From a virus, in the IMG/VR virus record IMGVR_UViG_3300028409_000001, positions 1-29,407 of that record: DNA of 29,407 nucleotides. One strand, 5' to 3'. The notes under the pieces were generated by a model, which was not told where the DNA came from, ran no database searches, and saw only the letters and a list, made by a program, of their open reading frames with translations. This document shows, piece after piece, positions 14,157-23,919 of the stretch; the first letter of the stretch is position 1; each line of letters starts with the position of its first letter. Both the position numbers and the translations under genes were made by a program.

Positions 14157-14501
14157 TTACTTGACCAGCAGCACTTCGATGAACTCACCGGCGCCGGCCG
14201 CCGAATCCAGGGTGTGGGCGGCCACCACCTCACCGCCCACGGCGGGGTTGACGATGGCCATGCCGTTGGCGTCGGACACCACGTCGTCACCCACGCTGAT
14301 CGCGCCGGCGGTCTCCACCACCGTGGTGCCCAGGGCATCGACGGACAGATCCTTGCCGTCGGTGGCGTCGAAGGTGGCGACCCCCAGGGCCTTGCCACCG
14401 GAGGCGGCAACCTGGGCGCCGTCGTAGCCCACAAAGCGGTGGGCGGTGACTGCACCGGCGGCGATCACGGTCAGGGTCAAAAGCGGAATTTTCTGGCTCA
14501 T
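14157..14501 (-). CDS. DUF2190-type capsid decoration protein (Mu gp33 position)
   Basis: 114 residues rich in Ala, Val and Gly with a beta pattern: VTAHRFVGYDGAQVAASGGKALGVATFDATDGKDLSVDALGTTVVETAGAISVGDDVVSDANGMAIVN, then VLLVK at the end. This matches the DUF2190 / head-fibre or decoration family commonly encoded between protease and capsid genes. Such proteins bind the outside of the capsid. The ATG at 14501 overlaps the protease stop (ATGA). The hydrophobic N-terminus is part of the fold and not a signal peptide. Confidence 0.82.
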   Translation of the reverse strand: MSQKIPLLTLTVIAAGAVTAHRFVGYDGAQVAASGGKALGVATFDATDGKDLSVDALGTTVVETAGAISVGDDVVSDANGMAIVNPAVGGEVVAAHTLDSAAGAGEFIEVLLVK

Positions 14502-14986
14502 ACGGCACCTCCTCGCTGGACGGCACGCACGGCCGTCACGTAGTCACACGTGTTGCGCTCCTGGTAAGCGAGCGCCTGGCGGTGCAGTCGCACCTTGTCC
14601 GGGTCGGCCTGGTAGCCGTCCGGGGTCTCGAAGCTCGTGGTGTCCTGGTCGTCGGCGTTGCCGGCGGCCCGTTCGCTGTAGTCAACGGCCTGGGGCAGCT
14701 CCTTCAGGAACCCCTCCAGGAAGGCCCGGCCGGTGGTCTTCACCTTGTCGTTGCCCTCGCCGAACTCCAGCGCGCCCTCGGCGTCCTGGTTGGCCATGAA
14801 TGCCACCAGGCCGTCGCGGTGCTTGGGCAGCACGCGGCCTCCGGTCACCAGTTGGTCGACCATCTTGGCGCTGGTCTCGGCCTGCTGTTGGCGGGTGCGC
14901 TCGGCGAACTCCGCCTCCTGTTGCTTGATGCGGTTCTCCCGCGCCTCGATCTCCTGGCGCTGGCGCTCCAGATCTTGTTTATCCAC
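14498..14986 (-). CDS. Z: Internal scaffold product (Mu Z equivalent), in frame inside I
   Basis: Codon 211 of the protease gene is a GTG (14986) preceded by GGAGGTGA with 5 bases spacing, one of the strongest ribosome sites in the window and unnecessary for the protease itself. Starting there gives a 162-residue protein beginning with the coiled coil VDKQDLERQRQEIEAREN and carrying the whole C-terminal scaffold part. In Mu, the scaffold Z is likewise made from an internal in-frame start in gene I. The sequence therefore supports separate scaffold synthesis. Confidence 0.72.
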   Translation of the reverse strand: MDKQDLERQRQEIEARENRIKQQEAEFAERTRQQQAETSAKMVDQLVTGGRVLPKHRDGLVAFMANQDAEGALEFGEGNDKVKTTGRAFLEGFLKELPQAVDYSERAAGNADDQDTTSFETPDGYQADPDKVRLHRQALAYQERNTCDYVTAVRAVQRGGAV

Positions 14987-15616
14987 GTCGTTCACCTCCT
15001 GGGTGGTTTGCGGTTTCGGTTTCGCGGGCGTTGCGGCCTCGCTGTAGGCGGGTGAGTCGGGCGCCTCCAGGTGCTCGATCTCAAAGTCGGGTAACACCCG
15101 ATCGGCGACCTCCAGCCCCTTCTCGCCGATCAGGTGATCGCGCAGCGCCCGGAACAGCCGCTGCACCATCCCGGCGCGGACCTCGCCGAACTCCAACTCC
15201 ACCACATCGGTGTCGCCGTCGGCGAACTCGATCTGTTTCAGGCCCTTGATGGCCGGCGGCTGGGCACCCAGAAAGCCCACATGGCGCAGGTAGTAAACGC
15301 CGGGCTTGGGGTTGGCGGGGGAATCGGGGCGGTAGAAGCTCGCGGACACCTTCTTGAAGCGGCCGGCTTCCACCAGCTCGGCGAACTGCGGCTCCACCTG
15401 GTCAGGCTCGGCCTCCAGGCTCTCGCCATAGCTCAGCGACTTGACCCAGCCATAGGCCGGGTGGTCATGACTGGGGTGGCCCACAACGATGGGCGCTTCA
15501 TGGAGCGCCGGGTCGTAGGCTTGGGCGGATGCGCGCAGCTCCGCCTCGGTAAAACCGATGGTCTCGCCGGACATCGCTGTGTGCTTGCCCGACCGGAAAA
15601 TTTCGATTCGCTGCAT
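14498..15616 (-). CDS. I: Prohead protease with fused scaffold (Mu I / gp32)
   Basis: 372 residues, close to Mu I. The N-terminal protease domain (about 1-160) includes the conserved APIVVGHPSHDHPAYGWVKSL segment, FKKVSASFYRPD (catalytic Ser region) and YYLRHVGFLGAQPPAIKGL. A linker (170-205) is followed by a Gln/Glu-rich coiled coil (211-255) and a scaffold-like end. The protease processes scaffold and itself in the prohead. ATG at 15616 has GGGAGG 5 bases upstream and is the first gene after the long intergenic region, so it is likely served by the late promoter there. Confidence 0.93.
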   Translation of the reverse strand: MQRIEIFRSGKHTAMSGETIGFTEAELRASAQAYDPALHEAPIVVGHPSHDHPAYGWVKSLSYGESLEAEPDQVEPQFAELVEAGRFKKVSASFYRPDSPANPKPGVYYLRHVGFLGAQPPAIKGLKQIEFADGDTDVVELEFGEVRAGMVQRLFRALRDHLIGEKGLEVADRVLPDFEIEHLEAPDSPAYSEAATPAKPKPQTTQEVNDVDKQDLERQRQEIEARENRIKQQEAEFAERTRQQQAETSAKMVDQLVTGGRVLPKHRDGLVAFMANQDAEGALEFGEGNDKVKTTGRAFLEGFLKELPQAVDYSERAAGNADDQDTTSFETPDGYQADPDKVRLHRQALAYQERNTCDYVTAVRAVQRGGAV

Positions 15617-15662
15617 AGCGGCCTCCCGTGATCGTGGAGGCCAGTATCAGGGGTGGCGCCAA

Positions 15663-15689
15663 CGCCTATAAGGTGTAGGGCTTCAGCAG
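15663..15689 (-). promoter_or_regulatory. Candidate late promoter PI with activator motif
   Basis: On the minus strand a 17-base element (15673-15689) reading CTGCTGAAGCCCTACAC is followed at once by CTTATAGG, a possible -10. A weak CTGACT lies 16 bases before TTATAG. The start of I is 56 bases downstream of the element. The same element (16 of 17 bases) occurs before the holin gene. In Mu, late promoters before lys and I have poor -35 boxes and are driven by the activator C, so this is a candidate C/Mor-type binding site. Confidence 0.5.
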
Positions 15690-15772
15690 TCAGGAGGGGG
15701 TGGCGGGGTGCCGGGAAAGGGGCGCGTATGCGCGCGAACTATGTAATCACCAGACGAAGCTGCTGGCAAGTT

Positions 15773-15809
15773 GTTTAAGACCCGTTTAACGGCTCGCAGG
15801 CTGGTTTAA
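15773..15809. promoter_or_regulatory. Three phased GTTTAA repeats in the G-I gap
   Basis: GTTTAA occurs at 15773, 15784 and 15804 on the plus strand, with spacings of 11 and 20 bases, about one and two helical turns. This is an AT-rich island in a GC-rich genome. The 264-base gap (15617-15880) has no gene. Mu has its strong gyrase site, needed for efficient replicative transposition, between G and I, so this gap is the positional equivalent. The repeats could be protein-binding sites or part of such a site. Confidence 0.4.
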
Positions 15810-15843
15810 AAACTTTTGGGCGGGCCTACGTTGCGCCCCGCCC
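15809..15843 (-). terminator. Terminator-like hairpin downstream of gene G
   Basis: On the minus strand GGGCGGG (15837-15843), a 12-base loop and CCCGCCC (15818-15824) form a 7-bp GC stem followed by AAAAGTTTTT. It lies 37 bases past the G stop. The late T-run makes it an imperfect Rho-independent terminator that would end the terminase-portal-G transcript before the PI-like promoter restarts transcription at I. Confidence 0.5.
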
Positions 15844-15880
15844 GTGCATCGCCTATCAGGGGCCTTACAGAGCGTTCCCG

Positions 15881-16393
15881 CTATCGGGCCGTTTCGGGCA
15901 ATGTGTGCCGGGTCAGGATGGCGTCGATCGCCTGGCGGTCATCCTCGGACAGACCCAGGTATGGACGCGCCGGAATCTTCACCTGCTTGACCAGGGCGAA
16001 GGCGCCGCCGGGGCTGCCGATCGCCAGGGCCGGCGCACGCTTGGCCCTTATGGTACCGCCCAGCTGGTGGATGGCTCCATAGATCTTGTTGGTTCCTTGC
16101 TCCAGGGAGTTGCTGCCCACCTGGTAGTGGATAGAACCGCGCAAGCCGGGGCCGCCGCTCTCGGTCAGGATCTTGTCGTTGCGTTTGTTGGCCAGGGTGA
16201 ACGGTGATAGCGGCTCCCAGGGCTGACCCTCGGGGTCGGTCTCGGTGCGGAAGCGCTCCTCCACCGAGCCCTGCAGGTGCTCGCCGATCTCCAGCAGCGC
16301 CGGGCGCAGACTGCCCATGTTGCGCGCGATCCGCTCCAGCACCTCGCTGGTGACCTCGTCGCGGATCTGCGTGTTCAGCTCAATGCCAGCCAT
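15881..16393 (-). CDS. G: Virion morphogenesis / tail completion protein (Mu G / gp31)
   Basis: 170 residues. It contains the family hallmarks SVEERFRTETDPEGQPWEPLSPFTLANK (P2 gpS / Mu G signature with the F..E.DP.G..W..L pattern) and the C-terminal KVKIPARPYLGLSEDDRQAI segment. The family acts in tail completion and head-tail joining. ATG at 16393 has GGAG 7 bases upstream and follows F by 3 bases. It is the last gene before the long intergenic region. Confidence 0.92.
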   Translation of the reverse strand: MAGIELNTQIRDEVTSEVLERIARNMGSLRPALLEIGEHLQGSVEERFRTETDPEGQPWEPLSPFTLANKRNDKILTESGGPGLRGSIHYQVGSNSLEQGTNKIYGAIHQLGGTIRAKRAPALAIGSPGGAFALVKQVKIPARPYLGLSEDDRQAIDAILTRHTLPETAR

Positions 16394-16396
16394 CGT

Positions 16397-17188
16397 CTAC
16401 TCCAGATCATCAGGGTCTTGGCGCAGCGCCGCGCGGATCTCGCCCATCATCGCCGTGCCCAGCACGTCCGGCAGCTTGCCGCGCTTGCGCTCCACCGTGG
16501 CGCGGGTCCGTTCGGCGATGCTGCGCCCCGGCGGGTAGCTCCAGCCCGGGTCGACACCCACCGGTACATCCTCCTGGCGCGCGCCGGTCGGGTCCTGCCA
16601 GGGCTCGCGTTGAACCGTCGGGGCATTGTCCGGGGCAGCCTTGCCCAGGCGCTTCAAGTCATCCGGCCCCACCGCCACCACCTTGCAGCTGCAGCCCCAG
16701 CCGTTGGGCGGGTAATGCTCGTTCCACCAGGGATCGTCAGCGCGCAACACCAGGCCATCCCAGCTCAGGTGCTCGGGGCGCGGGTCGGCACTGCCGCCGT
16801 GCAGGTAGCGCCAATACGGGCGCACCCGCAGCAGGTCGGGGTCGGTCAGCTGGGCATGGCGGCCGGCGGCGTAGGCGGTGCGCAGGTTGGTCTCGTAGAT
16901 CACCCGCGTGCGCCAGCCCCGGCCGCCGCGATACTCCCAGCCGGTGCGCTCCACCGCCTCGTCGAAACGCTCGCGGAACTGTGCCAGGGTGGTGCCCTCG
17001 CTGATCGCCTGGTCCACGGCGTTGCGCAGATCGTTCAGCAGATCCGCCTTGGCCGCGCCTGCCACCATGAAGGCGCTGTCGTGGGACTGCTTCCACACAT
17101 CGGTCCAGCGCTCGGTGGGCACGTTCGCCTTATTGCGAAAAAACGCGATCGCCTCCTCGAACGGCAGGTCCTTGTACTCGACGGCCAT
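16397..17188 (-). CDS. F: Phage head morphogenesis protein (Mu F / gp30), short form
   Basis: 263 residues. The conserved SPP1 gp7 / Mu F core is present: RVIYETNLRTAYAAGRHAQL (about 93-112), then YWRYLHGGSADPRPEHLSWDG and DPWWNEHYPPNGWGCSCKV with its two Cys. This minor head protein binds the portal and is carried in the head. It is much shorter than Mu F (over 400 residues), lacking a long C-terminal part, which is a known variation in transposable phages. The ATG at 17188 overlaps the portal stop as TAATG. Confidence 0.92.
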   Translation of the reverse strand: MAVEYKDLPFEEAIAFFRNKANVPTERWTDVWKQSHDSAFMVAGAAKADLLNDLRNAVDQAISEGTTLAQFRERFDEAVERTGWEYRGGRGWRTRVIYETNLRTAYAAGRHAQLTDPDLLRVRPYWRYLHGGSADPRPEHLSWDGLVLRADDPWWNEHYPPNGWGCSCKVVAVGPDDLKRLGKAAPDNAPTVQREPWQDPTGARQEDVPVGVDPGWSYPPGRSIAERTRATVERKRGKLPDVLGTAMMGEIRAALRQDPDDLE

Positions 17189-18648
17189 TACTCGCCCTCG
17201 CTCACATCAGCCCGGCCGGACAGCTCGGCGGTGGCGATTGCCTTCTGCATGACCTTCGCCAGCTGCTCGCTGGGCATCTCCTCGTACAGCTCCAGCATGC
17301 CGTCGCGCAGCTCCTCCATGGTGGCGGCGCTTTCCACCAGGCGACGCACCGGCTCCATCATCTCGCCCCAGCCCGGCCCGGCCTCACGTTCCAGCTGATC
17401 GGCCAGACGATCGCTGCGGCGCTTGGCGCTCTCGTCGTCACGTTCGGCGAAGCCCACCGGGCGGCCGCCACCTGGTGGCGGGGGTGGGCGGTTGTCCACT
17501 TCCCAGCCCTCGCCATAGGTCTCGGTGATGTAGCGCAGCGTGGGCTTGTAGCCCAGGCGGGCGACGCGCTCATCGCGCAGCGCCTTGCGTGCCAGGTCGT
17601 CCGTCTGATCCATCTGGCGCCACATGCGCGGGGCGCGGGCGTTGGGGTAGTTCCACTCGGTCAGCCACTTGGCCACCGACTGGTTGAAGCTCTCGCACAC
17701 CACATCGGCGTCCGCCTTCACGATGTCATCGCGCACCGTGTTGGCCATGTCCTCGCCACCCAGGCGGCCGGGCGCGCTCTCGCTGGAGCCCGTGTGTCCC
17801 AGGATCACCTTGGCGATCGCCCGGTCCATGCGGTCATACAGCGACGTGTAATCGCCGGTACCGGAGCGGGCCGCCTCGATCAGCTCGATCTGCATGCCCT
17901 CGGGCACAATCACCCCGGAGTCGCTGTGCACCGCTTGCAGGGCCTGCAGCAGACGCTGCTTTTGGGCCTCGGTGCTGGACGGCGGAAAGGTGCCCTTGGC
18001 CGTGGGCTGGCCGAACTTGTCCAGGAACGTCAGCCACAGGCGCAGGCCGTTGCGCTTGAAGAACACCGGCCAGTACAGCCAGTGGCCCAGGCCCTGGCCA
18101 TAGGGTTCGTCGTCGTGGTCGGCGCCGGTGCTGAACGTCCAAAACTTGCGATCGGGCAGCAGCTCGCCGCTGGGGTCGCTCGATGTCAGCAGGCGCAGCC
18201 GGCCCGCACCGTCGAAGCGAAAGCGGCGGCGGTTGCGCACCTTCAGGTCGTCCAGGGTGACGTGGCGGCCGTCCCGACCCCACAGACACTCGGCCACCGC
18301 GTAGCCGTAGAACACGCCGTACAGCATATTGCCAGTGGCCCGGTCGAAGCGGATGGCCTGCAGCTGCTCGCGCAGGAAGTCGGCGGCGGCCTTGTCCTGG
18401 CGGCCGGTGCCGCCGGGCTCCACCTCCCAACTGGCCTGGGTGACGGCCAGCTGGCGCTGCTGCCAGGTAGCTTTCACCTGGTCATCGCGCAGCAGCTCCT
18501 GGTACAGCCGCAAATCGCCACCGCCCCGGCTGGCCAGCACGCTGTCCGTAGGCTGCATCAGCTGCAGCGGCGAGACGTACCCCCGGGTAATGTCGCGGCC
18601 ATCCAGCGTGGTGGCCACCTCCTGCAGTTCTGGCTTCTCGGTCGCCAT
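17188..18648 (-). CDS. H: Portal protein (Mu H / gp29, DUF935)
   Basis: 486 residues. It forms the dodecameric DNA entry channel of the head. Family features are LYQELLRDDQVKATWQQRQLAVTQASWEVEPGG, GNMLYGVFYGYAVAECLWGRDGRHVTLDDLKVRNRRRFRF, KFGQPTAKGTFPPSSTEAQKQRLLQAL, and IELIEAARSGTGDYTSLYDRMDRAIAKVILGHT. The start ATG at 18648 directly follows the terminase TAA, with AGGGGG before it. The C-terminal 80 residues, after GGGRPVGFAERDD, form a charged helical region. Confidence 0.95.
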   Translation of the reverse strand: MATEKPELQEVATTLDGRDITRGYVSPLQLMQPTDSVLASRGGGDLRLYQELLRDDQVKATWQQRQLAVTQASWEVEPGGTGRQDKAAADFLREQLQAIRFDRATGNMLYGVFYGYAVAECLWGRDGRHVTLDDLKVRNRRRFRFDGAGRLRLLTSSDPSGELLPDRKFWTFSTGADHDDEPYGQGLGHWLYWPVFFKRNGLRLWLTFLDKFGQPTAKGTFPPSSTEAQKQRLLQALQAVHSDSGVIVPEGMQIELIEAARSGTGDYTSLYDRMDRAIAKVILGHTGSSESAPGRLGGEDMANTVRDDIVKADADVVCESFNQSVAKWLTEWNYPNARAPRMWRQMDQTDDLARKALRDERVARLGYKPTLRYITETYGEGWEVDNRPPPPPGGGRPVGFAERDDESAKRRSDRLADQLEREAGPGWGEMMEPVRRLVESAATMEELRDGMLELYEEMPSEQLAKVMQKAIATAELSGRADVSEGE

Positions 18649-20205
18649 TTAAAAACCCCCTGTGTCCGTGGCGCCACCGACGGCGCCCCAGCCTACGTCC
18701 TGCTGGACGCGGCCAGCCTCGTAGCCGCTGCGCTTGATGCCGGTGCTGCGAAATTCGATTTCCACCCCATTCTGACGGGTGGCGTAGTAGGCCAGGGCCA
18801 GGGCGATCGCGGCGTCACCGTGGCGATTCTTCTGGCCAGTGCTCTTGGGCAGGCGGGCCACGCCATCCACCAGCTTGATCGCGCGCAGATCGTCCAGCAG
18901 GTGTGAGTCCTTCGGGATCTCCAGGGCGCCATCTTCAAATGCCGCCTTCAGCGGCGGCATGTGCTCGCGGTACCAGCCCTCGGTGAACTGCACCTCATGG
19001 ATGCGGGCGCCGTAGTGCTGCGTTGCCACCTCGGCCAGGTAGGCGCCATTGCCCCGGGCGTCCAGGGCGCCCACATGGAAGCGCGGGAAGCGATCGCAGA
19101 TATAGAACAGCACCTGGCGCTGCTGCTCGAAGGGCATATTGCCCAGCTCCACCACGAACGGCACCCGGCGCACCAGGTCCACCCCGGTGACCATGGGCGC
19201 GATCACGGTCAGGTCGGAGACCCGGCCGAAGTCCTCGCCCAACGAAACCAGCAGATCCGCCGGCAGCGCCGCCAGGCGCGGGTGCAATTCGCGCTCGCAC
19301 CACTCGCGGATCTCGGCCTCGCGCAGGTGCGGCGCCCAGTGCTTGAACTCGTCGGGCATGGCCAGGCGCAACACCTCGGCCTGGTCGGTCATGCGCTCCT
19401 CGATAAGGGCACGCGACAACCAGGCGCCGGAGCCCTGCGACGGGATCACGTCCAGCTCCTCGCTGGCCGCGTCGCCATAGAAGGCGTACACGCTCTCGAT
19501 CCACTCGGCCTCGCCCTCGGCGGTCCATTCCTTGCCCAGGCGCAGACACACCCGCCGGTACAGCCCCTGGTCCACGGCTTCCTTGAAGCTAATGCGCTGG
19601 ACGTTACCCCGGCGCTTGCCGGCGCGGATGTCGTTGATCAGTTCGTTGAAGGGGTTGCGCTCGCCGTTGTGGGTGCTGATCACACGGACCTTGCCGCCCC
19701 AAATCAGCAGGGCCAGGGCCGCCTTCAGCAGCTCGCCCAGTTTGTCATGGAACGCCGCCTCGTCGATTACCACCACGCCCTGCTTGCCGCGCAGGTTGGC
19801 GGGGCGGCTGGACAGGGCCACGATGCGGTGGCCGCTGTCAGGAAACTTGATGGTAAAGGTCTTGATGTTCTTGTCGTCGCCGGCGTCTTCCCAGAGCCCC
19901 TCCTCGACAGCGCTGGCCGCGTGGTTGAACACGCGCGCCCACATGCCGCACGCCTCCACGTACTCGATGGCCATGTCCTGGTTGTAGCCGATGTAATAGA
20001 TATTCTGCCCGCCGGCGACCTTGGCACTGGCGGCAATCAGCACATCGTCCGACGCCTCCGCCCAGGTCAAACCCGTGCGGCGCGACTTCTCGGACACCTT
20101 CAGCTGGCTGTCATCAGCGATCCACGCCTGCTGATACGGCAGCAGCACCGGCGGCGGGGCGTCGGCCTCGTGGGTGGATGGCAGGCGGGCGGGCACGTCG
20201 GTCAC
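18649..20205 (-). CDS. Terminase large subunit (Mu gp28)
   Basis: 518 residues. It is the headful packaging motor. The ATPase half has a variant Walker A (SEKSRRTGLTW, 38-48) and Walker B VVVIDEAAF (144-152) followed by the coupling segment KVRVISTHNG. The nuclease half shows the RNase H-like acidic residues D325 (GEDFGR), D382 (LDARGNG) and D464 (RHGDAAIALALA). The start is GTG at 20205, sharing GTGA with the Gp49 gene stop. Mu-type packaging cuts flanking host DNA along with the phage genome. Confidence 0.95.
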   Translation of the reverse strand: MTDVPARLPSTHEADAPPPVLLPYQQAWIADDSQLKVSEKSRRTGLTWAEASDDVLIAASAKVAGGQNIYYIGYNQDMAIEYVEACGMWARVFNHAASAVEEGLWEDAGDDKNIKTFTIKFPDSGHRIVALSSRPANLRGKQGVVVIDEAAFHDKLGELLKAALALLIWGGKVRVISTHNGERNPFNELINDIRAGKRRGNVQRISFKEAVDQGLYRRVCLRLGKEWTAEGEAEWIESVYAFYGDAASEELDVIPSQGSGAWLSRALIEERMTDQAEVLRLAMPDEFKHWAPHLREAEIREWCERELHPRLAALPADLLVSLGEDFGRVSDLTVIAPMVTGVDLVRRVPFVVELGNMPFEQQRQVLFYICDRFPRFHVGALDARGNGAYLAEVATQHYGARIHEVQFTEGWYREHMPPLKAAFEDGALEIPKDSHLLDDLRAIKLVDGVARLPKSTGQKNRHGDAAIALALAYYATRQNGVEIEFRSTGIKRSGYEAGRVQQDVGWGAVGGATDTGGF

Positions 20206-20555
20206 TTATCGAACATCCTCTGCTTGAGCAGGTAGCCTTCCAGGGGCCAGATCTTCTCGATGGCATTTTCCCGTGCGATCTTGCGGCCCATCTCGGGGTC
20301 GAAGTTCTCCGGGCTAGCACACGCGGACTGGCCCGCAACAGTGAAGCCGTTGCGCAGCACCAGGACGCAGAAGGTCAGCAGCTTTAGCGCCTCACTGTCC
20401 GCCGGCTCGTCTCGGGTGATGCGCCCATACTTGGCCCCGCCATAAGCTGTGAAACAATGCTCGCTGGCGATGCTGGCTTCGATGTCAGCCGGCGTAACGC
20501 GCGGGGCCGTCTGTCCCTTGGCGGCGATCTCCTGGTGGATCTCGGACTTGCTCAT
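20202..20555 (-). CDS. Gp49-like small protein (phage gp49 family)
   Basis: 117 residues. The conserved part is VLRNGFTVAGQSACASPENFDPEMGRKIARENAIEKIWPLEGYLLKQ, the signature of the phage Gp49 family, found in many unrelated tailed phages. The N-terminal part (MSKSEIHQEIAAKG...TPADIEASI) is also typical. The molecular function is not established. ATG at 20555 has GGAG 7 bases upstream. It lies between the two terminase genes, not a position found in Mu itself, so it is an accessory insertion there. Confidence 0.87.
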   Translation of the reverse strand: MSKSEIHQEIAAKGQTAPRVTPADIEASIASEHCFTAYGGAKYGRITRDEPADSEALKLLTFCVLVLRNGFTVAGQSACASPENFDPEMGRKIARENAIEKIWPLEGYLLKQRMFDK

Positions 20556-20573
20556 GACTCATCTCCTGGTCGG

Positions 20574-21125
20574 TTACTTGGCAATCCCCAGCAGCTCGCG
20601 CCGCAGGTCGTTCACCATCTCGGCGGACAGACCGCCACGCTTGGCCACTTCGGCGGCCTTGTCGGCGGCCTCCTGGGCCACCTCTCGGCGCACCTCGCGC
20701 GCCCATTTCTTCTGGCCCAGACTCATGCGGCCAATGTCGGCCAGGGCGTGGGTGATGCTGGCCATGTGCTTGGCGGCCTTCTCGGGCTCGTGCTCGGCCT
20801 TGCGCAGGTTGATGGTGATGCGCAGCAGTTGCTCCTGGACGATGCGCGCGGTGGCATCCACCAGGCTGCCCTTGCTGTCGTCGTCGCTCTCGGTGAACGC
20901 CTTGGCCATCTCGGTGGTTTTGCGCACGTCACCCATGGCCGCCTCGAACTCCTCCTGCAGGTCCTGGCCGTAGCGCTGAACGCTGGAGCGCGACACCTTG
21001 AAGCCGCGCTCCTCCAGCCAGTTGGCCATCTGCTCATAACCCTGAAAGCCACTGCTGACCAGGCGCTCGTTCAGCTCGTCGCGCAGATCCGGCGGCAGCT
21101 CGTAAACCTTGGATCGCTTGGGCAT
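20574..21125 (-). CDS. Terminase small subunit candidate (Mu gp27, DUF3486)
   Basis: 183 residues from ATG at 21125. A longer in-frame form to 21191 overlaps the upstream gene without a ribosome site. It begins MPKRSKVYELPPDLRDELNERLVSSGFQGYEQMANWLEERGFKVSRSSVQRYGQ, the DUF3486 helix-turn-helix region that recognises the phage packaging site in the predicted small terminase role. A long helical, charged region follows (about 70-183). Order gp26-gp27-gp28 is as in Mu, apart from the inserted Gp49 gene. Confidence 0.87.
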   Translation of the reverse strand: MPKRSKVYELPPDLRDELNERLVSSGFQGYEQMANWLEERGFKVSRSSVQRYGQDLQEEFEAAMGDVRKTTEMAKAFTESDDDSKGSLVDATARIVQEQLLRITINLRKAEHEPEKAAKHMASITHALADIGRMSLGQKKWAREVRREVAQEAADKAAEVAKRGGLSAEMVNDLRRELLGIAK

Positions 21126-21126
21126 C

Positions 21127-21426
21127 TCACACCCCCGGACGCGGGCGCGCCACGCCGGGGGCATTGGCCCGGCCAGCAGCGACATCGCCACCGCGCGCGG
21201 TCAGGGTCACGATCCAACCGGCGCGGGGCTGCTGAACAATCGCCAGGCCCTGTTCCTCCAGCCAGGCCAGATCCGCGTGCAGCCGGTCGCGGCTCACGTT
21301 GTGGGCATAGGCCCCGGCCAGCTCGTCGTTCAGGCTGTACTCGTTGGTGGTGTACTCGTTGCGCCGTGACAGGATGCGCAACACACCCAGGCGGCGGCCC
21401 TCGGTCTCGAAATCTTGAAAGCTCAT
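21127..21426 (-). CDS. Winged-helix protein, Mu gp26 position
   Basis: 99 residues. The sequence (FETEGRRLGVLRILSRRNEYTTNEYSLNDELAGAYAHNVSRDRLHADLAWLEEQGLAIV, then a beta hairpin with GWIVTLTARGGDVA) has the helix-helix-helix-wing pattern of a small winged-helix DNA-binding protein. It fits the family seen next to DUF2730 and DUF3486 in Mu-like phages. The ATG at 21426 has GGGAG upstream. The function is unknown. Its place directly before the terminases suggests packaging or late regulation. Confidence 0.8.
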   Translation of the reverse strand: MSFQDFETEGRRLGVLRILSRRNEYTTNEYSLNDELAGAYAHNVSRDRLHADLAWLEEQGLAIVQQPRAGWIVTLTARGGDVAAGRANAPGVARPRPGV

Positions 21427-21428
21427 GA

Positions 21429-21770
21429 TTACTTCTCCCTCCGCTCCTGCAGCAGGTAGTCGTGCAGCCGGTGCAACAGCGCCGTGGTGCCCTGCAGCTG
21501 CGCCGTCACACCCTCCAGCGTTCGGTTCGTCTGCGCCATCTCGGCCCGCAAATTATCCAGGTCGCCGTACCCGGGTCGGTTGTCCAGCGTCTGCTCCAGG
21601 CGCTTCATGTGCTGGTCCACATCGGTCACCCGGTCATCCACCTGCTGGATCGCCTTGGTGGTCGCCCGCGTGCGCCCGGTCCACCACACATAAATGCCGA
21701 TCACTGCCATGATTACGGTCTGCGCCACGTCCCAAAAAAACCGCGCGCCGTCGATGTCTACAGCCTCCAT
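21429..21770 (-). CDS. Membrane-anchored coiled-coil protein (DUF2730-like, Mu gp25 position)
   Basis: 113 residues: a short acidic N-terminus, one transmembrane helix at about 12-32 (FWDVAQTVIMAVIGIYVWWTG), then a long coiled coil (36-110) with VDDRVTDVDQHMKRLEQTL. This is the layout of DUF2730 proteins in Mu-like phages. The topology (inner-membrane anchor, periplasmic or cytoplasmic coil) would also suit an i-spanin, but no partner lipoprotein is seen. The ATG at 21770 overlaps the upstream stop as TGATG. Confidence 0.82.
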   Translation of the reverse strand: MEAVDIDGARFFWDVAQTVIMAVIGIYVWWTGRTRATTKAIQQVDDRVTDVDQHMKRLEQTLDNRPGYGDLDNLRAEMAQTNRTLEGVTAQLQGTTALLHRLHDYLLQERREK

Positions 21771-22006
21771 CAGGCCCCCGTTTTTTTCTGTTGTCGTTCA
21801 TGGTCCGCCTGGCACTCCACGCAGCGGCTGGCGGTTGGCCAGGCCGCAAGGCGGGCCGCCGGGATCGGCAGCCCACACTCCAGGCACCCCCCGTCCGGCG
21901 AGCCGGCGCCGCCGTCCCGCATTTGCTGGCGGTGCTGTTCCAGGGCGTGATCAATCTCCCCCTGGGCCAGCGCACTGGCTCGCTCATAGTCGCGTTCATC
22001 AAACAC
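21770..22006 (-). CDS. DksA/TraR-type C4 zinc-finger protein
   Basis: 78 residues if started at GTG 22006, which has GAGG 7 bases upstream. A TTG two codons earlier is too close to that site. It consists of a helical pair (ERDYERASALAQGEIDHALEQHRQQM) and the zinc finger CLECGLPIPAARLAAWPTASRCVECQ, with all four Cys present (C-x2-C, then C-x2-C). This is the TraR/DksA fold in its short phage form, which can bind the RNA polymerase secondary channel. Several Mu-like phages carry such a gene in the lysis region. Confidence 0.88.
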   Translation of the reverse strand: MFDERDYERASALAQGEIDHALEQHRQQMRDGGAGSPDGGCLECGLPIPAARLAAWPTASRCVECQADHERQQKKTGA

Positions 22007-22015
22007 GGCCAAACC

Positions 22016-22606
22016 TCACCCGCCCAGGCGCTTAGTGATCGCACCCAGAAGGCCGCCGCCCGGCTGCTGCCCGGCGGCCACCTGCTTGTCCTGGCTGCGC
22101 TTGGCCACATTCACACCCAACACAGAGAGCGCCACCGCCCACTGCATGCCCAGGGCGGACACCATGCTGCCCACGGCGTTGATGATCGGGCCAGCTTCGG
22201 TCGGCGAGGCAATGGCCGCGTACAGGCACGCGCCGATGATGCCGAACGCCTGAACCACCCAGGCCAGGGCCACGGCATAGCCGAAGGTAGGCCGCCAGCG
22301 GCGCACGTAGCCGTCATTGCTGGCCGCCTCGGCGCGCATGGTCTTGTTCACCTGGCCCAGGCGGGCGGTCTCCGCCTCCAGGTGCATCCGGGTCAGATCC
22401 CGCTCGTTCTCCATCTCCAGCTTGCGCACGCGCTCCAGCGCCTCGGGGTCCGCCTTCAGCGCCTCCACGGTCGCCTCCGGGGTTGCCTCACTGCCCAGGG
22501 CCTTGGCCACCAGGCCACCCACGGCGCCGCCGGCCGGGCCGCCCAGCATGGACCCCACCAGCGGGGCCGCCTTGGCGACCATGCCGCCCACATCAGACCA
22601 ATCCAT
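22016..22606 (-). CDS. 3TM holin-type membrane protein
   Basis: 196 residues from ATG at 22606, sharing one base with the endolysin stop (TGATG), with GGAG 7 bases upstream. A 41-codon upstream extension lies inside the endolysin gene and was not used. The layout is a glycine/alanine-rich N-terminus (VGSMLGGPAGGAVGGLVAKALG), a charged helical middle (70-105), the NDGYVRRWRPTFGYAVALAWVVQAF motif, and two further hydrophobic segments. It matches the 3TM holin family of gene-transfer agents and Mu-like phages. It may be the holin or a partner of the smaller one upstream. Confidence 0.82.
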   Translation of the reverse strand: MDWSDVGGMVAKAAPLVGSMLGGPAGGAVGGLVAKALGSEATPEATVEALKADPEALERVRKLEMENERDLTRMHLEAETARLGQVNKTMRAEAASNDGYVRRWRPTFGYAVALAWVVQAFGIIGACLYAAIASPTEAGPIINAVGSMVSALGMQWAVALSVLGVNVAKRSQDKQVAAGQQPGGGLLGAITKRLGG

Positions 22607-23115
22607 CAGGGTGTCTCCTCGATAAACTCGGCCACCCGGTTGGCCCAGCCAGCAGCAAACGCCGCCTGCGAGGGGTCGCGGGTGATTATTTGTCCATAGA
22701 AACGGCAGCGCTCGGCGAGCACCCCGCAATAAAGATCCGTGCCGTCCTGGCTGTTGACGGCCGCCAGGGTTATTGGCCCCACCTTGCCGTCGGTGTTCAC
22801 GTCCGCCGCCTGCTGCAGCCAGCGGGCGGCGCGGGCCGGGCCGTGGTTCACGGCGCAGTCCACCACCAGGGCCGCCAGGTCCTCGTCCTCGATGTCAGCG
22901 AAGCGGGGCTCCACCACATAGCGGGCGGCGTAGATCTCCCGGGCCTCGTCCTCGGTCAGGTCGCGGACCTCGTCCACGCTCACCGAACGGCCGCGCCAGC
23001 TGGCCAGGGTCTCCTGGGTGATGCCGTAATTGGTGGCGCCGCCCCGGTCGGCGGCGTGGTTCACGAAGCCGCCCTCGCGGCGCAGGATGTCGTCGATCAG
23101 TTGCTTGATGTTCAT
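22606..23115 (-). CDS. Endolysin, glycoside hydrolase family 108
   Basis: 169 residues. The N-terminal IDDILRREGGFVNHAADRGGATNYGIT is the GH108 signature, with E14 in REGG as the catalytic Glu. The second domain (about 95-169) has the peptidoglycan-binding pattern WLQQAADVNTDGKVGPITLAAVN. It cleaves the glycan strands of the cell wall at lysis. No signal peptide is seen, so it depends on a holin to reach the periplasm. The ATG at 23115 overlaps the holin-candidate stop (ATGA). Confidence 0.93.
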   Translation of the reverse strand: MNIKQLIDDILRREGGFVNHAADRGGATNYGITQETLASWRGRSVSVDEVRDLTEDEAREIYAARYVVEPRFADIEDEDLAALVVDCAVNHGPARAARWLQQAADVNTDGKVGPITLAAVNSQDGTDLYCGVLAERCRFYGQIITRDPSQAAFAAGWANRVAEFIEETP

Positions 23116-23423
23116 GGCGCCCCCAGGCCGATGGCCACGATAGCGGCCGCCATGATCAGGGCACGGCGCAGCATGCTAGCGGCGATCAGCAAGGCGGTGT
23201 TGGGGCCGGCGTCAGCAATGGGCACCGATCCCGGGCGGGAGTAGTGAAAGACGGAGCGGTCGATCCAGTACCCCAGGAAGGCGCCCAGGGCCAGCTTGGC
23301 CAGCGCCCACACCAGGAACACAGGCAGGTCAGGGTTCCACCAGGTCACCAGGGCCAGCGCCACAAGGGCAACCAGCAGCCAGGGACTGGCACGGAGAAGG
23401 TCGAGTAAGCGTTTAGTATCCAT
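23112..23423 (-). CDS. Putative holin, first lysis gene
   Basis: 103 residues with three hydrophobic segments: about 14-29 (PWLLVALVALALVTWW), 34-53 (VFLVWALAKLALGAFLGYWI) and 76-100 (TALLIAASMLRRALIMAAAIVAIGL). The DRSVFHYSRPG loop after the second helix is a pattern I associate with putative holins of Mu-like phages. It is immediately upstream of and coupled to the endolysin. ATG at 23423 has only a weak G-rich ribosome site. It is the first gene after the probable lysis promoter. Confidence 0.78.
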   Translation of the reverse strand: MDTKRLLDLLRASPWLLVALVALALVTWWNPDLPVFLVWALAKLALGAFLGYWIDRSVFHYSRPGSVPIADAGPNTALLIAASMLRRALIMAAAIVAIGLGAP

Positions 23424-23460
23424 GCCCCGCAGACTACGAGACGGGCACGGGGGTAATCAT

Positions 23461-23477
23461 GTGCAGGGCTTCAGCAG
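23461..23477 (-). promoter_or_regulatory. Candidate lysis-operon promoter motif
   Basis: The minus-strand element CTGCTGAAGCCCTGCAC matches the element before gene I in 16 of 17 bases and is followed by ATGATTACC. Its left end overlaps a perfect inverted repeat GCAGCG-CC-CGCTGC. The 106-base gap 23424-23529 between the activator gene and the holin is where Mu has Plys. The start codon of the holin is 37 bases downstream. A binding site for the Mor/C-type activator encoded immediately upstream is the simplest reading. Confidence 0.5.
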
Positions 23478-23529
23478 CGGGCGCTGCCGGGAGGGATTCG
23501 CGCAGAGTAGCGCGGCGCGCGCTCGGGGT

Positions 23530-23919
23530 CTAGAGGAGGGACTGCTGCCGGTCGTCCACCGGCTCGTCGGCTGCCGCAATGATCGCATACACCTGGCGCT
23601 CGGTCAGCCCGTAGCGCAGGGCCAGCAGTGCCGGGCTTGCGCCGACGTGGCGCTCGGCCCGGATGCGGCTATTGCGCACAGCCCGCAGCGCGTGCAGGCA
23701 GCGCGGGATCTGGATGGTCTCGCCGCCGTAGCGGCTGGCCAGCAGGTCGGCCTCGGCGCGACCCAGGGTGGACACCAGCAGGTGGTCCTCGGGCATCTGC
23801 TGTGGCACGTACAACCGAATACCGCCCCACGCCTCCACCAGGCGCAGGGCGGCCTCTACGCCTACCACGTCCACAATCTCCGCCGCGCTGTGCGGCAGCT
23901 GGTCGATGTCAATGTCCAC
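23530..23919 (-). CDS. mor: Mor/C-family transcriptional activator
   Basis: 129 residues, as for Mu Mor. The dimerisation domain shows the family pattern IVDVVGVEAALRLVEAWGGIRLYVPQ (15-40) and LASRYGGETIQIPRCLHALRAVRN (60-83). The helix-turn-helix is at about 92-116 (VGASPALLALRYGLTERQVYAII). Such proteins bind dyad sites and recruit RNA polymerase to promoters lacking a -35 box. Only one family member is visible. It sits directly before the lysis genes, the place of C in Mu, so it may do the work of both. The start is GTG at 23919, with a G-rich ribosome site, overlapping the upstream gene by 11 bases. Confidence 0.93.
   Translation of the reverse strand: MDIDIDQLPHSAAEIVDVVGVEAALRLVEAWGGIRLYVPQQMPEDHLLVSTLGRAEADLLASRYGGETIQIPRCLHALRAVRNSRIRAERHVGASPALLALRYGLTERQVYAIIAAADEPVDDRQQSLL

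Follow-up and report, generated by a model that had tools for sequence, protein, structure and literature searches.

A 16-bp dyad as the probable operator of a Mor/C-family late activator in a Mu-like phage, with a possible second lock at the level of translation

How might a transposable phage with a single known Mor/C-family activator, encoded directly in front of its lysis genes, address its late operons? The question is raised by IMG/VR record IMGVR_UViG_3300028409_000001, a linear and possibly fragmentary record that was analyzed entire (29,407 bases, hereafter the window), and in particular by a short element that occurs in it twice, upstream of the genes for a head maturation protease and for a holin. 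The record is that of a transposable Mu-like phage, with a transposase fragment and a DNA transposition protein at its right end and with genes for a GH108 endolysin, terminases, portal, protease and major head protein. A sequence-only reading of this DNA had proposed that the element is the likely activator site of a late regulon and that the Mor-family gene immediately upstream of the second copy is the candidate partner. Both proposals are supported at the level of sequence, activator-DNA binding and the start sites being predicted, and the element is very probably the operator of this activator.

The 17-base element, CTGCTGAAGCCCTRCAC, matches the minus strand at 15673-15689 and 23461-23477 with 0 mismatches at both. 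That there is no third copy also proved correct: the window holds no other match at up to three mismatches, a result that applies to the 29,407-base record only, as it may be a fragment. Dinucleotide-shuffled whole windows gave a mean of 0.33 such matches, and two or more in 3 of 100 shuffles. The copies lie, as had been claimed, in the gaps equivalent to those of Mu PI and Plys, the first between a Mu G-like tail-completion gene and the protease (ATG 15616) and the second between the Mor-family gene and the holin (ATG 23423). The further claim that a 16/17 match between them is unlikely by chance stands for the two gaps alone, where 16/17 was attained in 2 of 5,000 shufflings of the gap pair, but not across the whole window, where such matches are ordinary: each of six shuffled windows held 16-45 pairs of 17-mers matching at 16/17, and the real window holds 213, partly because a 130-nt repeat adds many. 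The main support for the element is conservation in relatives, rather than the self-match of the two copies.

The conserved unit was resolved by lining up close and distant relatives found with activator and protease scans (loci numbered L) together with named phages. This corrected the boundary of the element: the first two letters (CT) of the 17-mer lie outside the conserved unit, which is a 16-bp dyad, NNTGAA-N4-TTCANN, with the right half relaxed to TRCA in the clade of the window (TGAA-N4-TRCA). It was recognized through relatives that carry intact dyads, namely L023 (GGTGAAGTGCTTCACC and GGTGAACCGCTTCACC, identical in Bordetella hinzii and Pusillimonas caeni prophages), Alteromonadaceae phage B23 (CCTGAACTCCTTCAGG and CCTGAAGGGCTTCAGG) and the holin of L055 (GGTGAAGTCCTTCACC). 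Both copies within a phage mostly carry the same lineage-specific outer letters: GCTGAA/TTCGCC in L020, L024 and Chromohalobacter phage YPCBV-1, GGTGAA/TTCACC in L023 and the Bordetella hinzii (L089) and Pusillimonas (L088) prophages, and CCTGAA/TTCAGG in B23. The arms and their spacing are kept at roughly 43-53% activator identity and the bases between the arms vary; the flanks of the two window copies do not align. A pairwise search for shared dyads that used no rule placed the operator dyad at the top in 17 of 38 loci, some of which come from a single contig. The dyad did not come first in TJ1, KS10, L065-L068 and the distant loci, and in the loci of the window clade it was outranked by GC-rich chance repeats because the right half-site is relaxed.

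For counting, the dyad was defined by the rule NNTGAA-N4-T[TGA]C[AG]NN, then 23 or 24 nt, then NANNNT. With one record counted per contig, 30 of 42 have a match of the rule upstream of the protease (the 42 being the 54 loci that gave a protease match, minus 11 duplicates and Mu, which is without the site), and a dyad is found downstream of the activator, before the lysis genes, in the same lineages that carry the protease dyad. Across 35 loci, some of them near-duplicates (1,187,486 strand-bases), there were 52 matches, exactly two of them in the window; 46 fall at late promoters, two are echoes of the palindrome and four lie elsewhere. Shuffled versions of the gaps matched the rule in 4 and 2 of 5,000. 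Two further bodies of evidence lie outside the material that formed the rule. One is a set of extra sites before tail genes in three isolates: in B23 a third dyad precedes a homologue of tail gene P, in the gap that corresponds to that of Mu PP; Burkholderia phage KS10 has three dyads in all; and in Curvibacter phage TJ1 there are four GGTGAA-N4-TTCACC dyads, all perfect and all with 23 nt to NANNNT, which precede the holin, the protease, gp46 and a gene located near 25.6 kb. By the rule, no more than two dyads are present in the contigs of 32-35 kb that are nearest to the window. The other is a set of 58 additional, mostly more distant protease loci (leaving out three with too little upstream DNA and the duplicate L123), of which six matched: L109, L124, L138, L141, L144 and L160.

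These same counts, and a few individual sequences, also supply the points that weigh against a general operator. Twelve of the 42 records are without a site by the rule, ten of them distant proteases at 30-42% identity (L026, L074, L078-L084, L090) and the remaining two Klebsiella phi1.1 and Mannheimia 3927AP2; the figure of 30 is itself partly in-sample, since the rule was shaped on several sequences later counted; and 52 of the 58 further loci have no match. The two copies of L086 differ from one another, as do those of L007, whose holin copy (GCTGAAGCCCAACATC) has lost its right half and does not satisfy the rule, and Klebsiella phi1.1 has a related variant, ACTGAAGCCC[CG]TCAA, that fails it as well. 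The motifs ATAA and TTAT in published Mu promoter oligonucleotides are taken by us to be the half-sites of C. Unlike the window dyads, with their TGAA-N4-TRCA, the Mu oligonucleotides carry ATAA, and that of lys TTAT-N11-ATAA (PMC4461284). Given the 12 and 52 loci without a site, the operator is shared by only a subgroup of Mu-like phages.

The dyad is set at a near-fixed distance from a -10-like hexamer. Its end lies 23 nt from NANNNT in the window, L020, L023, L055, YPCBV-1, TJ1 and KS10, and 24 nt from it in the B23 clade and at the proteases of L021 and L022. With a spacing of 23 nt and the hexamer set at -12 to -7, the dyad falls at predicted -51 to -36, which is where the Mor dyad lies at Mu Pm, overlapping the -35 region, according to PMC4287176. 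The letters of the Mu Pm site were sought by eye and not established. A promoter scan of both window gaps returned 0 sigma70-type sites at the threshold of the tool. The window promoters, with starts as predicted, appear to have the layout of Mor/C-dependent promoters, in which a dyad upstream of or overlapping -35 stands at a near-fixed distance from -10. Mu C-dependent promoters have non-consensus -10 and -35 elements (PMC4461284), and from the oligonucleotides of that paper we read the -10 elements as TAGACT for lys and TATCCT for P.

The assignment of the gene upstream of the second copy to the Mor/C family is secure at the level of profiles, PF08765 being matched by 27 of 27 aligned activators, that of the window included, at E <= 0.001. 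A profile of the activator group searched against the PDB found Mu C (9l0x, E 5.3e-5; 9vw8, E 7.8e-5) and Mor (1rr7, E 0.023); by their titles, 9l0x and 9l0y show C and Mor in transcription initiation complexes of E. coli. Structure comparison was less discriminating. An AlphaFold2 model of the activator has a mean predicted local distance difference test (pLDDT) score of 86.6; Foldseek with this model found nothing at E <= 1e-3 (1rr7 at E 0.83), and VIA-align gave Z 6.3 against Mu C 9l0x and 6.0 against 1rr7 over 48 residues, values that unrelated helix-turn-helix chains tie. The C-terminal helix-turn-helix region (LALRYRLTERQVY) is among the conserved parts of the protein. By tblastn the activator is present as a single copy in the window, possibly a fragment, and in one copy in each of the 8 matching records among 12 searched, so there is no sign of a cascade from Mor to C.

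Table 1. Features of the two predicted late promoters of the window and the genes around them.
Feature	Position	Strand	Details
Operator dyad GCTGAAGCCCTACACC	15672..15687	minus	16 bp; promoter of head maturation protease (Mu PI-like)
-10-like hexamer GATACT (protease)	15643..15648	minus	23 nt past dyad; predicted +1 ~15636
5' arm GGCCTCC of protease hairpin	15636..15642	minus	about -6 to +1
3' arm GGAGGCC of protease hairpin	15620..15626	minus	covers most of Shine-Dalgarno GGGAGG (15622-15627)
Head maturation protease (gene I-like)	14498..15616	minus	first gene of late operon; phrog_976 E 1.4e-117
TTGCCA-N17-TTACAT, similar sigma70-like pair	15741..15769	minus	53 nt upstream of protease dyad
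Mor/C-family late activator gene	23530..23919	minus	PF08765 60.8 bits (cut-off 24.9); phrog_836 E 1.8e-38
TAGACC-N17-TACTCT, conserved sigma70-like pair	23504..23532	minus	28 nt upstream of lysis dyad, end of activator gene
Operator dyad GCTGAAGCCCTGCACA	23460..23475	minus	16 bp; lysis promoter (Mu Plys-like)
-10-like hexamer TAGTCT (lysis)	23431..23436	minus	23 nt past dyad; predicted +1 at 23424 or 23423
Weak inverted repeat around lysis -10	23424..23442	minus	arms 23435-23442 and 23424-23431; abuts ATG
Holin	23112..23423	minus	PF13272 E 3.1e-12; ATG 7 nt past -10 hexamer

Could the dyad be something other than the operator of the Mor-like protein? A dyad near -43 would also suit other dimeric regulators, such as a phage repressor or a host factor, but the phages in which the element is found bear an activator of this family, the element is as far from the -10 as the Mor dyad is at Mu Pm, the TGAA core of the site and the helix-turn-helix region of the activator are both conserved, and it is late genes that most of the rule matches mark; another regulator is accordingly quite improbable here. 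Even less credence is due to chance, or to common descent of the copies from a duplicated but functionless promoter segment, which we regard as very nearly dismissed. In its favor, 16/17 matches are common across a window of this size, but flanks that fail to align, arms and spacing that persist while the inner bases vary, and perfect dyads in several lineages all speak against it.

A different challenge comes from the sigma70-like pairs upstream of each dyad (Table 1), which might be the main drivers of the late operons, with the dyad as a modifier. The lysis-side pair is very specific: the pattern T[AT]G[AC]C[ACG]-N17-TA[ACG][CT]CT has 20 matches in 32 loci (1,180,420 strand-bases), and all 20 fall 25-43 nt upstream of a lysis dyad, although the pattern was derived from the very sequences in which its matches were counted. 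On the protease side, a looser pattern of the pair also matches many unrelated places. Both pairs are poor matches to the consensus and were passed over by the promoter scan; TJ1, KS10, Klebsiella phi1.1, L057 and L086 have a lysis dyad and no match of the pair pattern; the position of the ATG and the weak Shine-Dalgarno pairing fit a downstream start; and a constitutive holin promoter would endanger the lysogen. Control by these pairs thus seems unlikely, and the activator-dependent promoters remain the preferred account. The protease-side pair is itself part of a block in the gap between G and I (15741-15820, minus strand) with repeated TTAAAC/TTTAAA, and similar blocks occur in YPCBV-1, Klebsiella phi1.1 and Mannheimia 3927AP2. 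The Mu record annotates a gyrase cut site in the equivalent gap, which makes the window block a candidate strong gyrase site.

If transcription starts where the dyads predict, many of the late mRNAs would have little or no leader. The distance from hexamer to ATG is 6-7 nt in 13 of 31 promoters, placing the ATG at predicted +1 or +2: the holins of the window, L005, L007, L055, L023, B23, L065 and L067, the proteases of B23, TJ1 and KS10, and TJ1 sites 3 and 4. Shine-Dalgarno pairing in this class is weak to moderate (-1.7 to -5.9; -5.0, weak, for the window holin). It is the short distance together with the weak pairing that leads us to predict leaderless or near-leaderless mRNA for this class, the window holin included. 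In the protease of Klebsiella, for which a spacing of 21 nt was taken, the ATG lies 9 nt from the hexamer, and the other 17 promoters have 24-62 nt and mostly stronger pairing (-5.9 to -10.3), with the Klebsiella endolysin (-2.8) and KS10 site 3 (-2.6) as exceptions. Leaderless mRNAs such as that of lambda cI have the AUG at the 5' end and no Shine-Dalgarno sequence; unlike cI, the genes for which such starts are predicted here are activator-dependent lytic genes. The annotated protease starts of KS10 (TTG; L047 18120) and TJ1 (L048 18593) lie in or beside the predicted promoter, and ATGs further downstream (ATGGACACG in KS10, ATGACACAA in TJ1) fit the predicted promoters better.

A second feature recurs at these promoters. 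In nearly all of 34 that were folded, an inverted repeat straddles the -10/+1 region and its 3' arm covers the Shine-Dalgarno sequence or abuts the ATG. At the window protease the 5' arm, given its position, would fall outside RNA that starts at the promoter or touch no more than its extreme end; L055 retains this hairpin as GGTCTCC/GGAGACC. The fold of the TJ1 holin is -34.8 kcal/mol as read-through RNA versus -3.2 as promoter-started RNA. Mu PI has CTGCTCA at about -6 to +1, if the oligonucleotide ends 20 nt downstream of the start, as stated in the paper, and TGAGCAG adjoining its Shine-Dalgarno sequence; Mu PP, 362 nt before annotated gene P, was excluded from the comparison. The arms differ by promoter and lineage yet keep pairing, so that a lock here would be one maintained by structure rather than by sequence.

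Comparison with other starts gives the hairpin prediction real support at the level of the group. Sixteen starts of the 6-7 nt class were picked by dyad and spacing and not for any hairpin (the proteases of L065-L068, for example, were left out), and the controls were 150 other starts annotated in four phages. In all 16, a 3' arm takes in at least 5 of the final 8 nt, compared with 35 of the controls; the mean hairpin z is -2.18 versus 0.02, and z is <= -1.5 in 10 of 16 versus 9 of 150. The 16 represent about six lineages and are not 16 independent events. The cost of opening the ribosome site, taken as read-through minus promoter RNA, has a median of 5.5 kcal/mol for 31 late starts versus 1.2 for controls (p 8e-8), and the difference is >=4 kcal/mol in 18 of 31 late starts versus 65 of 447 control tests, in which a start could be tested as many as three times. 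In the protease leader, 90.4% of cells are paired and two pairs have changed on both sides, in a count where MAFFT misaligned two rows (L023, L109). Three pairs have changed on both sides in a distant protease family of seven, with 10 of 500 shuffles as high, in an ungapped alignment where 6-nt and 7-nt loops share a register. This family (L131, L136, L142, L146, L147, L150 and L153, near ~975-1003) is of note in its own right: its TTAGAT-N6-ATG is flanked by arms that covary, and the family fails the dyad rule. A set of 29 distant protease starts was hand-picked, from 59 of 62 distant loci (without L123, L133 and L167), for a visible ATG near a -10-like hexamer; it is biased and no claim rests there.

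From the dyad, its spacing and conservation, the extra sites and the inverted repeats, all of them observed in the sequences, we infer activator binding, start sites, operon run-on and an effect on translation, which could be joined as follows. Early-gene transcription would run on into the activator gene. A dimer of the product would bind the 16-bp dyad at about -51 to -36 of the two late promoters, which would have a -10 but lack a workable -35, and would recruit or activate host RNA polymerase there, turning on the lysis genes (holin, endolysin) and the head genes from the protease onward. As the initiation region lies within an inverted repeat, RNA arriving from upstream would fold and hide the protease ribosome site, and would carry the holin ATG without a good Shine-Dalgarno sequence, whereas RNA begun at the late promoter, being without the 5' arm or starting at the AUG, would be translatable. 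We lean slightly to the reading that translation is confined to RNA begun at the late promoter, as for T4 gene e. Whether late genes in many Mu-like phages are double-locked in this way, with an activator-dependent promoter whose -10/+1 is a hairpin arm, late-promoter RNA (often from AUG) alone translatable and early read-through silent, we see as evenly balanced.

Several results temper the translational part. The hairpin of the window holin, at -7.9 kcal/mol and z -0.66, is not significant alone; the KS10 holin and the Klebsiella protease are poor fits among the 34, where the folding of short stretches favors local hairpins; the opening difference is absent in the KS10 holin (-0.5) and L067 (-0.1), and the leaderless class generally gains little by this measure; and covariation in the protease leader is modest, with 69 of 500 shuffles as high. 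In the window, the translation lock would be strong for the protease and weak for the holin. The inverted repeats might also act on DNA, through an initiation region that is hard to melt or forms a cruciform, and not by hiding ribosome sites. The leaderless class, where GC-rich arms closely flank the -10, would suit this, but where there is a leader the position of the 3' arm tracks that of the Shine-Dalgarno sequence, which begins 15 nt (window protease) or ~33 nt (TJ1 holin) past the -10, a layout that a melting model would not predict. Action on DNA is a possibility that we consider doubtful, and occlusion of the ribosome site remains the account that we favor.

Comparison with known systems places the two layers. 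As in the late regulon of Mu, where C acts at Plys, PI, PP and Pmom, a Mor/C-family activator lies just upstream of the lysis promoter, there are promoters before the lysis genes and gene I, the activator site is upstream of -35, and the -10 and -35 elements depart from consensus. Unlike Mu, with Mor and then C, the window has one activator, and the late promoters number two in the window, three in B23 and KS10, and four in TJ1. Mor itself drives the middle operon of Mu, whereas the window activator would drive late genes, and Mor is without about 20 residues that the alignment shows in the window activator family. For T4 genes e, soc, 49 and I-TevI, early RNA hides the ribosome site and late-promoter RNA, which is without the 5' strand, is translated, as described in PMC3014915. 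The predicted arrangement at the window protease is like these early-late hairpins, of which gene e is a clear precedent, with the 3' arm over the Shine-Dalgarno sequence and the 5' arm upstream of the late start. It differs in that T4 uses its own late sigma factor and no Mor-like activator, and in that the layout here recurs within a phage, at several of its late promoters, and is accompanied by starts predicted to be leaderless.

The operator thus appears to be a new sequence in a known activator family, confined to a subgroup of Mu-like phages; the claim is a strong one, and ordinary in kind. It offers a concrete operator, TGAA-N4-TTCA at near-fixed spacing, for a subgroup of the Mor-like activators that databases label only "late transcriptional activator", and makes the late regulons of these uncultured transposable phages readable from sequence. 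The translation layer, if true, would explain the silence of a lysis gene placed directly behind early genes, and the safeguard of T4 gene e would be present again, together with leaderless starts, in phages of an unrelated group. No report of the operator or of a translation layer in Mu-like phages was found in the literature searched, which held few subscription journals and included, in part, papers on KS10, YPCBV-1 and Mu-like phages of P. aeruginosa.

Two observations concern the left end of the contig. A direct repeat of 130 nt (1-130 and 1731-1860; identity 99%, offset 1,730 nt) may be a true duplication or an end effect of the assembly. Close by, at 346-1416 on the minus strand, an Mtd second domain (E 2.8e-23) is combined with an FGE-sulfatase-like match just below the cut-off (23.0 vs 23.3 bits), a pair that resembles tail proteins diversified by retroelements. 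YPCBV-1 has Avd and a reverse transcriptase at its end, and with the Mtd-type protein this suggests that the phage of the window may have a retroelement beyond the contig.

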